Below, one piece after another: positions 60,168-64,000 of a stretch of 64,000 bases of DNA (position 1 is its first letter; each line of letters opens with the position of its first letter). Origin of the DNA: Cenarchaeum sp. (GTDB lineage: Archaea > Thermoproteota > Nitrososphaeria > Nitrososphaerales > Nitrosopumilaceae); assembly GCA_020027325.1 (NCBI GenBank), contig JAHRAL010000056.1:1-64000 (forward strand), in the 5' to 3' direction. The position numbers and the translations under genes were made by a program. Under the pieces are notes generated by a model. It was not told the DNA's origin, made no database searches, and worked only from the letters and a program-made list of their open reading frames with translations.

Positions 60168-60181
60168 TTTTAATTTAATTA
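60168..60181 (+). promoter_or_regulatory. TATA-like box of the TFB-like/ParB-like operon
   Basis: TTTTAATTTAATTA, about 30 nt before the ATG at 60208. Confidence 0.5.
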
Positions 60182-60207
60182 CTAGTAGGTGCCATAATAC
60201 TTACCGC

Positions 60208-61029
60208 ATGACTCTGAATGCACAGACTCGGACGGGAGGGCCAGATCTCAGGCATTCGATGAATCACCCGCAGACACGGGAGGCCAAATGCGTGTACCAC
60301 GGCACCCACTGCCTCATTTCAAGTGACGGCGAAGTGGTGTGCAGGATATTTGGAAATGTCATCAGGCGCATCGAGGATGCAGGGGTATACGGCGCAGAAT
60401 CGCGCGAGTATACTGCCGAGCACTCGGGGTACGGCGCCCAGGAATTTCTAGGAACCGCCGACCCGATTCTTAATTCACGCTCAAACAAACTCTACACAAG
60501 GCGCAGGGCCGATGCCGTATGGGAGCAACGGATACGAAAGCTGGCAGACCAGTTTAACATAAAAAAATCCCTGCGCAAGGAGATAGAGTTTGTATTCTCA
60601 TTGCTGAGGCGTAAGACCTCGCACAGGCCCTCACTCATACTGTTCTTTGCGTTCTATAACACGTGCAGGCAGCGCGGCGCGACTGCGATTAACGAGTCAG
60701 AGCTCCGCGATGCCATATGCCACTGTTGCAACCTAAAGACCATGTACACGGCGCTAAAGATCTATGGGATATTTGCCGATGAGGCGCAAAAGCTCGGCAT
60801 ATACAAAAACGGCCAGCCGACGGGATTTTACTTTAATGCGTTTCTCAGATCAGTGTACGAGACGCTGAATCTAGACGAGCTTGACAGGAATTACCTAGAG
60901 CGCAATGCGCGAAAAAAGTACCAGTCACTGCCGCAGTCCATGGGGGAGAGAACCCGAGTAAAAAGCACGTTCTTGTCCGTGCTGGGATCTAGCGGATACG
61001 AGTCCGTAAGGAGGGGCGTAAGGTATTGA
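60208..61029 (+). CDS. Degenerate TFB (TFIIB)-like protein
   Basis: 273 residues starting MTLNAQTRTGGPDLRH. The N-terminal segment CVYHGTHCLISSDGEVVCRI resembles the TFB zinc ribbon, but only C28, H31/C35 and C45 remain of the four ligands (FGN where CG would stand). Residues about 105-190 resemble the first TFB cyclin repeat (SLRKEIEFVFSLLRRK, FFAFYNTCRQRGATAINESE, NLKTMYTALKIYGI). A clear second cyclin repeat is missing. It may be a promoter-specific or decoy transcription factor, or a DNA-binding protein using the cyclin fold. First of four overlapping genes; TTGA overlap with the next. The family link is moderate. Confidence 0.62.
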   Translation: MTLNAQTRTGGPDLRHSMNHPQTREAKCVYHGTHCLISSDGEVVCRIFGNVIRRIEDAGVYGAESREYTAEHSGYGAQEFLGTADPILNSRSNKLYTRRRADAVWEQRIRKLADQFNIKKSLRKEIEFVFSLLRRKTSHRPSLILFFAFYNTCRQRGATAINESELRDAICHCCNLKTMYTALKIYGIFADEAQKLGIYKNGQPTGFYFNAFLRSVYETLNLDELDRNYLERNARKKYQSLPQSMGERTRVKSTFLSVLGSSGYESVRRGVRY

Positions 61030-62132
61030 CGGGTCTAGAAAATGCCCGAATCGTCAAGATATCGGATCTGACAAGCTCGCCGGTGCCCGTACACATCCAC
61101 TCAAACAAGCAGACAGAGCACATATCGGCAAACCTAGAGGCCGACATACACGGGCACGTCATACGCATCGCCAAGCTGAACTCCAAAATGTACGTAATAG
61201 ACGGTCACATGCTAGTCGAGGCCCATCGCAGGCTCGGGATAAAGTCCGTGCGCGTAGCCGTCCACAACGTCAAAAACATCAGGGAGGTGATAACCATGCA
61301 CGTCAAGCACAACATGAACAATCCTCCGAACCCCATACAGCTTGTCCAGGTGATACTCTACATGAGAAAGGCCGGTGACTCTGACAGGGAGATAGCCAAG
61401 GCGCTAAAGTCAAACAAGTTCATCGGCAACCTGCTCCGCCTAAAGATCAACGCCGATGCCGTAAAGGAGCTAGAAGGCATACTAGTGGATCTCTCCAAGA
61501 TGTATTATTCGGTGCACCATTTTTTCCCGTACAATCTCATTGAATGGGTGTTCAGGCAGCCCATGGACAAGCAGGTTGCAGCGGCAGCTGCGCTGCGAAG
61601 ATCCATCGACGACTTGATCGGCGTCTCTGAGCGCAAATTCATATGGCCTACCCCGATGGAGGTGCGCGTAATACAGAGGCATGCCGAGGCCCCCGCCAAC
61701 CAAAAGGTAGTGCCGGTACCGCTGCGGTTTAACAACGAGGGAATGAGGGGCAGGCCAAAAAGCACGATAGTCGGCGCCTCGGTAGTCAGCAAGCCGCCAA
61801 GCGAGTCCGAGATGCGCAAGATATGCGCAGACAACACGCCTGCATCCAGGCAAAAGCTTGCATTCAAGTGCCCCCACGGATCCCTGCTGTACATGGACGG
61901 CAAGTCGCGCATCTTTCATGTCGATGAGGGTGACGACAAGACCATAGTCCGGCTCCAGCGCATCGATTCGGAAAACAACGTATACCGCATCTCAGAGGAG
62001 TGCAGCAGGTTTATGCGCGTAAAAAACGGCAGGATCTTCCTCAAAATGTCCGGCCGTGATCAGGCACTCTCCATCGTAAAAAAGCTGAAAAAAGGCTCAA
62101 ACATCTGCATACTTTCAGCGGCGGAACTGTGA
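61026..62132 (+). CDS. ParB/Srx-fold protein with helix-turn-helix
   Basis: 368 residues from TTG, overlapping the previous stop as TTGA. Residues about 27-85 show the ParB N-terminal pattern (GHVIRIAKLNSKMYVIDGH, AHRRLGIKSVRVAVHNV). A helix-turn-helix follows near 117-140 (DREIAKALKSNKFIGNLL), as in KorB/ParB. A C-terminal part of about 120 residues (KCPHGSLLYMDGKSRIFHVDE ... ICILSAAEL) is unfamiliar. The GERRxRA motif needed by canonical chromosomal ParB for CTP binding is not present (GHMLVEAHRR). No ParA is next to it. It may bind DNA for segregation or regulation. Confidence 0.68.
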   Translation: MTGLENARIVKISDLTSSPVPVHIHSNKQTEHISANLEADIHGHVIRIAKLNSKMYVIDGHMLVEAHRRLGIKSVRVAVHNVKNIREVITMHVKHNMNNPPNPIQLVQVILYMRKAGDSDREIAKALKSNKFIGNLLRLKINADAVKELEGILVDLSKMYYSVHHFFPYNLIEWVFRQPMDKQVAAAAALRRSIDDLIGVSERKFIWPTPMEVRVIQRHAEAPANQKVVPVPLRFNNEGMRGRPKSTIVGASVVSKPPSESEMRKICADNTPASRQKLAFKCPHGSLLYMDGKSRIFHVDEGDDKTIVRLQRIDSENNVYRISEECSRFMRVKNGRIFLKMSGRDQALSIVKKLKKGSNICILSAAEL

Positions 62133-62935
62133 GGTGCCGGGGGAGGATTTCTGTGACAATGTGCATCGAATCCGCAGACGAGCAGGAAGACGCGGTCCTA
62201 AACGTGCACCAGGTCAAAAAAGGCGGGTGCCTGTCAAACCTACTCGTTTCAGTGCTCAAAAGCGAGTGCACCCAGCGCAAGACGGTCGTAGTCATGCCAA
62301 AAAACATACAGAGCTTTCGAAGCTTTTGTAGATTCAGGATAAACGCGCCGCTCCTAAACGTGCAGCACCCTGATCTGAACGACTGCCCGCCCGCGGGGTT
62401 TTTCGTCCTGATAAACAAGAACCACAGGCCGATATGCGCAGGCGGCTCCGTAAAGAGGATCACGTGCGTGAATCTGACCGGGCTTGGCCGGTGGATGGCA
62501 ATTGCGCTGTCATTGAACGTCAGCCTGTTTGGCATGTGCCTGGCAGCCGAGATCTATGCACACCATGCCATGAACTCCAGCAGGATGTCGGCCGGCCGCG
62601 GCGCACAATATGGTGCAATGGATGATGGCACAAAGGAGATGATCAGCCCGTTTACGACGATAAAGTTTGCACGCAGGTTTCCCAGCTGCAGCAGGTACAA
62701 GATAACGCGGACCTTGCAGGATCTGGAGGAAGCAGGGATGATCAGCGTGTCAAAGAGCATGCACTGCAACACCATAAGGGCAAACCCGGCCCACTCGCTG
62801 TTCTCAAGGTATTGGCCGGCCCTCTCAAAGCTCACAGAAGCGCTGCACGGTCTGGACACGCTTGAGAGAACGTCGCGCAGCATTGCCGGCATGCATCTGA
62901 TCCTGGACGATCTCCAGTGCCCCAGGACATGCTAG
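62129..62935 (+). CDS. Unknown protein with probable winged helix
   Basis: 268 residues from GTG overlapping the previous stop (GTGA); an internal start at 62153 or 62159 is possible. The N-terminal half is alpha/beta (KTVVVMPKNIQSFRSFCRF, PAGFFVLINKNHRPICAGG). The C-terminal half has a winged-helix-like segment (TTIKFARRFPSCSRYKITRT, LQDLEEAGMISVSKS). I do not recognise the family. Translational coupling on both sides ties it to the ParB-like and peptidase-like genes. Confidence 0.6.
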   Translation: MRCRGRISVTMCIESADEQEDAVLNVHQVKKGGCLSNLLVSVLKSECTQRKTVVVMPKNIQSFRSFCRFRINAPLLNVQHPDLNDCPPAGFFVLINKNHRPICAGGSVKRITCVNLTGLGRWMAIALSLNVSLFGMCLAAEIYAHHAMNSSRMSAGRGAQYGAMDDGTKEMISPFTTIKFARRFPSCSRYKITRTLQDLEEAGMISVSKSMHCNTIRANPAHSLFSRYWPALSKLTEALHGLDTLERTSRSIAGMHLILDDLQCPRTC

Positions 62936-63609
62936 AGCCGGCAGCCGATCTGGCCGGCGCACTTTTGATGGCAGCCATTGCCGGCATAGCGGCCCGGCTT
63001 GACAGAAATGAGCGCAGCATACACAACGGCACGCTCTGCTCAATGGGGGCAGGCGCGGCGGCGTTTTTGTGCACAAAATGGGCGGTTTTTGGAATACTCC
63101 CGGCGGTATCCGATATCGTGCTTATGGCGCTGTATGCCGCAATGCTCGGGGCAATGCTTTGGGGAAAGGTGTTTGTGGCACGCGGCGACATTGCAGTTAT
63201 CATGGTGACAAGCATGCTGGTGCCCTCACTGTACGGGATTCCGACAGTCGTAATAACGCTCGGCGCAGCACTTGTCGTTGCCACGGCATACTATGTCACA
63301 AGGACGCTTGCCGCAAACGTCTCAGAGTTTGCAAGTACGCGGCGCGTCTTTGGGGGAATCGACGACACGGCGGTGCGCAAGATGGCCGCATTCTTCATAG
63401 TCCACAGGCGGTCCCCCGGCGAGCGCTTTTGTTTTGCCGGCGAGACTGTAGATTCTGGACGCAGGCGCCTGGTTCTCCTGCCAAGGAACCTGGACTCTAT
63501 CGACATTGAGGCAAGGACTGAATACGTCATTGCGGCAGTGCCGTTTATGGTCCCATATTTTGCAGGCACGTGCGCGCTTGCACTGGTTGCCGTACTGGGC
63601 CTCACATAG
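62929..63609 (+). CDS. A24-type prepilin/preflagellin peptidase-like membrane protein
   Basis: 226 residues starting MLEPAADLAGALLMAA; the start overlaps the previous stop. About six hydrophobic segments. Two aspartates at the places expected for type IV prepilin peptidases: D25 in ARLDRNERSIHNG (compare DLR.R.IPN) and D87 in VARGDIAVIMV (compare GGDxK). Their spacing (62) is close to that of archaeal PibD and FlaK. A soluble insertion (about 120-205) precedes the last helix. It probably removes leader peptides of archaeal pilins; no pilin gene is seen nearby. Placement in an operon with DNA-binding proteins is odd. Confidence 0.7.
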   Translation: MLEPAADLAGALLMAAIAGIAARLDRNERSIHNGTLCSMGAGAAAFLCTKWAVFGILPAVSDIVLMALYAAMLGAMLWGKVFVARGDIAVIMVTSMLVPSLYGIPTVVITLGAALVVATAYYVTRTLAANVSEFASTRRVFGGIDDTAVRKMAAFFIVHRRSPGERFCFAGETVDSGRRRLVLLPRNLDSIDIEARTEYVIAAVPFMVPYFAGTCALALVAVLGLT

Positions 63610-64000
63610 GCCGTTTCTTTTCTAGTTTTTGCGCAGTGGAGAGTATCAGGTCGATGACTGCGCCGGTCCTGTCAAGGACACGGAGTGCCAGTCGTGCGAC
63701 CTCGTCGTTTCTTCCGTGCCTCGAGTACTGGCGGAGGTATTCAAACGTAAACTCTTTGTTCGAGTCTGTGGCGTACAGCTCGGAGAGGACGCATGCGGAA
63801 AGCTGCGCGACGGCCTCCTGGATTGCGTCTTGGCCGCCCCTGAGTCTCTTTCCCTTTTTTTGGAGTATGATGTTGTCTGCTGCATGGCTTATCTCATGGA
63901 AGAATATTCCGGCGTTCTCTGTTCCCAGGTGGATGTCATTGTGCTCAAGGCGGTAGCTTCCCATTGTCCTGCACGTGGGATCCGTCTGGTACTTTATCGC
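63602..64000 (-). CDS. ArdC-like zincin metalloprotease domain (partial)
   Basis: The C-terminal 132 residues of a gene that continues beyond the right edge; the frame is open to base 64000 (IKYQTDPTCRTMGSYRLEHN). The zincin motif HEISH in GIFFHEISHAADN and the later EAVAQLSACVLSELYAT match the C-terminal domain of ArdC/DUF1738 anti-restriction proteins of plasmids and phages. Such domains are metalloproteases by fold and often accompany single-strand-DNA-binding domains. It converges with the peptidase-like gene, overlapping by 8 bases. This suggests a mobile-element history for the right end of the window. The ATG at 63964 is internal. Confidence 0.68.
   Translation of the reverse strand, partial: AIKYQTDPTCRTMGSYRLEHNDIHLGTENAGIFFHEISHAADNIILQKKGKRLRGGQDAIQEAVAQLSACVLSELYATDSNKEFTFEYLRQYSRHGRNDEVARLALRVLDRTGAVIDLILSTAQKLEKKRPM

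Follow-up and report, generated by a model that had tools for sequence, protein, structure and literature searches.

What might a transcription factor of the TFB family, a ParB-like protein, a winged-helix protein and a prepilin peptidase be doing together in one archaeal operon? The question is raised by four plus-strand genes, here called P1 to P4, at positions 60,208 to 63,609 of a 64,000-nucleotide stretch of DNA (the window) from the ammonia-oxidising archaeon Cenarchaeum sp. The window comprises bases 1-64000 of contig C17 (70.7 kb; JAHRAL010000056.1) from a fragmentary genome of 1.25 Mb that is 91% complete (GCA_020027325.1, hereafter G000). Two other genomes, G001 and G002, belong to the same genus, g1. 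We propose that these genes probably constitute the control-plus-processing operon of a conjugation or type IV pilus machine that derives from an integrative and conjugative element (ICE) and has apparently been domesticated in this genus. Across Nitrososphaeria the first three genes form a fixed TFB-like/ParB-like/winged-helix triad whose members overlap closely.

The locus has the layout of an operon. P1 (60208..61029, 273 amino acids) is followed by P2 (61026..62132, 368 amino acids), P3 (62129..62935, 268 amino acids) and P4 (62929..63609, 226 amino acids), all on the plus strand. A sequence-only reading of the window had described four such genes joined by stop/start overlaps, and both the open reading frames (ORFs) and the junctions are confirmed: TTGA between P1 and P2, GTGA between P2 and P3, and a P4 ATG at 62929 ahead of the P3 stop codon (TAG, 62933-62935), with an alternative P4 GTG start possible at 62917. 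The AT-rich segment TTTAATTTAATTACTAGTA (60169..60187, plus strand) resembles an archaeal TATA region and is the probable operon promoter. Direct comparison of the upstream regions places TTTAAT..ACTAGTA ahead of P1 both in the window and at the sister-genome locus L004. When folded, the sequence upstream proved no more structured than its shuffled versions, and sigma-70 and terminator scans returned matches at about chance level.

What, then, do the four genes encode? Searched singly against Pfam and NCBIfam, the window proteins gave nothing significant. Because the individual sequences are so diverged and lack a significant Pfam match, family alignments were required: relatives were collected, alignments A1 to A4 were built for P1 to P4, and these were compared as profiles with PDB sequences. 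The P1 family profile matched TFIIIB70/TFIIB (4e-6), and Pfam recognised a TFIIB repeat in 17 of 22 members and a TFIIB zinc ribbon in 15 of the 22. The AlphaFold2 model of P1 comprises a five-helix cyclin repeat and three further helices, and Foldseek related it to TFIIB (5e-4) and to the archaeal TFB 1d3u (2e-3). Profile, Pfam and model agree in giving P1 the TFB/TFIIB fold over cyclin repeat 1. Its zinc ribbon is degenerate, the fourth ligand having been lost by a change from CxxC to CxxF in the window and G002 only (the Cys is retained in the other 20 of 22 relatives), and an alternative Cys/His ligand set is possible. The earlier description of P1 as a TFIIB with a broken zinc ribbon and one cyclin repeat is thus borne out as to fold, and the ribbon loss is real but genus-specific.

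P2 begins with a ParB/Srx-type N-terminal domain, continues with a helix-turn-helix (HTH) region and ends in a C-terminal domain that is conserved. The window protein itself matches a ParB-like family in PHROGs (phrog_1033, 1.2e-6), and the family profile matches ParB 4umk (2.5e-4) over the N-domain and the helices after it; a ParB N-terminal fold is therefore followed by an HTH, for which the support is weak. Where ParB has the CTP-binding box GERRxRA, the window protein reads DGHMLVEA. The GERR motif is absent at every P2 locus examined, and no ORF with a ParA-type deviant Walker A motif lies within 6 kb of the P2 loci, in keeping with the sequence-only reading of a ParB/Srx and HTH protein that has neither box nor partner.

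P3 is a winged-helix protein, probably with two winged helices. Its family profile matches MarR 3nqo (1.3e-4) and also IdeR, and its model contains two helix-helix-strand-strand units with weak Foldseek matches to MarR/ArsR proteins (E about 0.01). The possible winged helix noted earlier is accordingly of MarR/IdeR type at about 1e-4, the least strong of the four domain calls. Matches of the same profile to designed proteins (dTor) were disregarded, having no domain-level support. For P4, the family profile matches FlaK 3s0x, an A24 peptidase (5.2e-7), and Pfam finds Peptidase_A24 in 9 of 11 members, although it does not recognise the window protein on its own. Asp25 and Asp87, the catalytic pair already recognised in the window, are invariant across the family. 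Judged by sequence, P4 is an A24/FlaK-like prepilin (class III signal) peptidase, and prepilin cleavage is predicted. A family-profile search detected no other A24-like gene in G000, G001 or G002. All four folds proposed at the outset are supported at family level by profile comparison, and for P1 and P3 also by structure models.

Could these genes have come together by accident? The same four genes stand in the same order in the sister genome, with amino acid identities of 50, 40, 33 and 48% for P1 to P4. A P2 profile search over 400 Nitrososphaeria genomes was positive in 55, in a patchy and sometimes multicopy distribution. P1 lies directly upstream of P2 at 38 loci in 33 Nitrososphaeria genomes, overlapping it or separated by 10 nucleotides or fewer at 37 of them. 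The same close spacing holds between P2 and P3 in 31 of 34 cases and between P3 and P4 in 11 of 15, P4 being the next gene in about 15 loci. Because order and overlaps recur in the sister genome and at 38 loci, the gene set is not a chance neighbourhood, an explanation that conserved synteny rules out. The sequence-only reading would have fallen had these genes not been neighbours elsewhere or had their folds proved unrelated; the set recurs in other Nitrososphaeria, and the folds are those proposed.

The loci are of several types. ICE-like loci carry P1-P2-P3 and a divergent ribbon-helix-helix (RHH) gene, often with an actin/MreB-like ATPase. In family f2 the triad overlaps or lies near virB4, and in other lineages it adjoins type IV pilus genes (pilins, T2SSE, T2SSF). 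Four-gene operons at chromosomal sites occur in genus g1, to which the window belongs, and in genus g17, among others. A search of genome contigs found nothing with the window P2, and eight loci in metagenome-assembled genomes with a Nitrosotalea-type P2 alignment. Genome G171 carries the four-gene operon and an actin-like gene twice, once on contig C9 and once on C36 (L031/L032). Two triads have P1 or P2 as two ORFs (L090 3235-4714; L048 6149-7196) and may be decaying copies. Viral contigs searched with P1 gave no match. With P2, the IMG/VR viral contigs L025-L029 yielded a protein that resembles it over the C-terminal domain alone (residues 269-356, 28% identity); this domain may therefore travel separately.

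The triad is further tied to transfer and pilus machinery by gene content, in that it goes with ICE-type VirB4, secretion ATPase and TadC genes. VirB4, scored with alignment A6, was found in 35 of the 55 P2-positive genomes and in 32 of the 345 P2-negative ones (odds ratio 17, Fisher p = 4e-18, kinship ignored). At L126, a family-f2 locus, P1-P2-P3 runs into virB4 with an overlap, and P2-VirB4 distances in this family are about 0.6 kb. In the window genome, contig C15 encodes a T2SSE ATPase (2.6e-25), a VirB4/TraG ATPase (6e-15), a T2SSF/TadC-like protein and membrane proteins that ICE modules also have, and a single 27-kb contig of G001 begins with a C15-type secretion module and ends in P4. 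Some hallmarks of thaumarchaeal ICEs are present, namely a TFIIB homologue directly before a ParB-like gene, together with VirB4/TrbE, a secretion ATPase and TadC. Synteny and the VirB4/T2SSE association back the original suggestion of a DNA-binding module tied to secretion or pilus processing, possibly to DNA transfer; as a functional guess, it appears broadly right.

Much of this arrangement has precedent. A TFIIB homologue is encoded in every thaumarchaeal ICE identified, in most of them directly before a ParB-like gene with which it probably shares an operon, and these elements carry VirB4, VirD4, secretion ATPases, TadC and VirB6, with prepilin peptidase among the conserved components (Krupovic et al. 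2019, PMC6563490). TFIIB homologues are common regulators in archaeal type IV pilus loci, where a single-cyclin form also occurs (Makarova et al. 2016, PMC4858521). Since these two studies describe TFIIB-ParB ICEs and TFIIB pilus loci, the core of the operon was already known, mainly from archaeal conjugative elements. The sequence-only claim that no described system has this combination has to be withdrawn, the TFIIB-ParB core and the prepilin peptidase having been published for thaumarchaeal ICEs (PMC6563490). What is new here is the fixed third gene, the presence in the operon of P4 as the sole detectable A24 peptidase in the three genomes of the genus, and a machine with no detectable VirD4. 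A literature search that took in few subscription journals and did not cover the 2019 supplement found no account in which the third gene is always a winged-helix one, the only peptidase of a genome lies within the operon, or the machine is VirD4-less.

Comparison with known systems sharpens these differences. Thaumarchaeal ICE transfer modules, like the window genome, have TFIIB directly before the ParB-like gene and possess VirB4, a secretion ATPase, TadC and a prepilin peptidase. Unlike those modules, the window genus has P3 and P4 in the same operon, its VirD4 and integrase are undetected, and the VirB4 module of the window genome is on a separate contig. The pilus-locus TFIIBs (arCOG01981 and the single-cyclin arCOG05559) include, like the window operon, a single-cyclin variant tied to a pilus-type ATPase/membrane operon. 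They differ in that no ParB is mentioned with them (PMC4858521) and that arCOG05559 is specific to the Pyrobaculum-Thermoproteus group. NAH7 ParB activates conjugation genes by binding parS (PMC12421886); P2 may similarly act, like it and RK2 KorB, as a ParB-fold regulator binding near transfer genes beside a second HTH regulator, but it lacks the GERRxRA box and a ParA partner. Ced, a domesticated archaeal conjugation machine, is a chromosomal, conjugation-derived VirB4-type machine devoid of mobile-element functions (PMC9905601), as the one in the window genus appears to be, although TFIIB and ParB go unmentioned in that account and no CedA-type parts were identified here. P4 shares both invariant Asp residues and a FlaK profile match with the FlaK/PibD A24 peptidases, yet it is divergent, about 226 amino acids long, bears a conserved C-terminal extension, and is encoded beside regulators, not pilins.

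How might such an operon work? Earlier work has listed the TFIIB and ParB homologues of archaeal transfer elements without explaining them. We infer that P1 to P3 regulate transfer or pilus genes, and the same holds for their DNA targets and the direction of control. P2 would bind sites of operator or centromere type, located within the transfer locus or close to it. P1, which retains cyclin repeat 1 and some of its zinc ribbon, might act with TATA-binding protein to help recruit RNA polymerase to transfer/pilus promoters, or might compete with the host TFB, and P3 could serve as a repressor or co-regulator at the same promoters. P4 would cleave the pilins of the machine at their class III signal peptides, and pilin processing would in this way be made together with the transcriptional switch. 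A more specific version is tentative and, on balance, doubtful: a VirD4-less domesticated machine run by a TFB variant and a CTP-box-less ParB-like switch, with the cell's sole prepilin peptidase in the control operon. If true, all pilin processing in the cell would be gated by that switch.

Several observations weigh against a control-plus-processing role. The P2-VirB4 statistic is uncorrected for phylogeny, and 20 P2-positive genomes have no VirB4 match. The four-gene operon of genus g17 is chromosomal and far from virB4 (574 kb vs 1278 kb in G255), and in the window genome the VirB4 module and the operon are on different contigs, cis linkage being seen only in G001. P1 lacks a four-ligand zinc ribbon in the window and G002, as well as a complete second cyclin repeat for contact with the B recognition element, its model showing only three helices beyond repeat 1. 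Completeness of the genomes is 72-91%, which leaves the absence of VirD4 and integrase unproven. A search for operator or parS sites found no clear repeats in the window or near type IV secretion system genes; they occurred only in Nitrosotalea-type RHH-P1 regions, so autoregulation or a centromere fits equally. These repeats bear on the main rival, element partition, under which P2 would serve an integrated element as its partition or centromere protein, with P1 and P3 as autoregulators and the pilus link as incidental ICE hitch-hiking. We consider this unlikely. The tandem palindromic TACATGTTANNNACATGTTA arrays (ACATGT units 11 bp apart; L044 6676-6760, L045 6554-6645, also L046, L047 and L049), which occur in five close relatives and there only between the RHH gene and P1, are a candidate operator or parC/parS-like site. 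P2 has the ParB fold, and an actin/MreB-like ATPase (Pfam MreB 1.9e-10) follows closely downstream of the triad in at least eight loci. Yet no locus has a GERR box or a ParA-type motif, the window operon has no adjoining actin-like gene, operons with P4 persist in lineages that have no nearby element, and triads occur at pilus loci or overlapping virB4.

It is also improbable that the window operon belongs to a complete, still mobile ICE split over contigs C15 and C17, even though VirB4, T2SSE, a TadC-like protein, prepilin peptidase and TFIIB-ParB are all present and the gene content matches published ICEs. A query from a family-f2 element, resembling the VirD4/TraG coupling protein, found counterparts in the ICE-bearing genomes G037, G311 and G215 (down to 45-47% identity, E about 1e-96), but none in the three g1 genomes, nor in G255. 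Tyrosine integrase PF00589 had no match in the three g1 genomes, and this search found none in G311 either, which carries an ICE-type module. GC content is host-like (operon 54.7%, window 54.6%). The operon occurs in G000 and G002 and P4 in G001, the P4-side neighbourhood is conserved, and each of the three genomes still has VirB4, secretion ATPase and operon genes. Domestication is favoured because GC is host-like, the genes are retained in the genus, and no VirD4 or integrase was detected; the ICE-derived machine thus appears domesticated there. Very high divergence, the broken zinc ribbon and a long tree branch would suit a decaying, functionless remnant, the neutral leftovers of an old ICE. 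This we regard as very improbable, given four intact frames in two genomes at 33-50% identity with their overlaps retained, both catalytic Asp residues kept, and P4 intact in a third genome.

Behind the actin/MreB/ParM-like ATPase gene of several ICE-like loci (L031 8574-9425; L080 2371-3210; L034 2090-2953) there is often a small ORF, about 94 amino acids long. Upstream of the operon, the genes in the window look chromosomal by sequence, resembling RNA polymerase subunits, IMP dehydrogenase, AmoC and dihydropteroate synthase. Downstream, a convergent HExxH protein (HEISH; 63602..64000, minus strand, cut by the window end) is a flanking neighbour and not an operon member, and it is kept beside the operon in the sister genome. 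It has a homologue in a Nitrosotalea-type ICE (L003:5602-6675 vs L080:6313-6642, 1.7e-17). Pfam assigns it to no family and gives no support to an ArdC antirestriction identity. The P4-side neighbours common to the genus are this protein, CorA and large repeat proteins, and the P1-side neighbours differ between G000 and G002. The sister-genome gene upstream of the operon (L004 12206-13183) differs from its counterpart in the window and codes for a CARF-like winged-helix protein of the HFX_2341/DUF6293 type (Pfam 7e-31). Each of the three g1 genomes has, close to the operon, arrays of very large repeat proteins that are rich in aspartate and resemble calcium-binding, thrombospondin type 3 repeats (L003 8656-12744, on C17 past the window; L004 1-6584; L111 2-6330).

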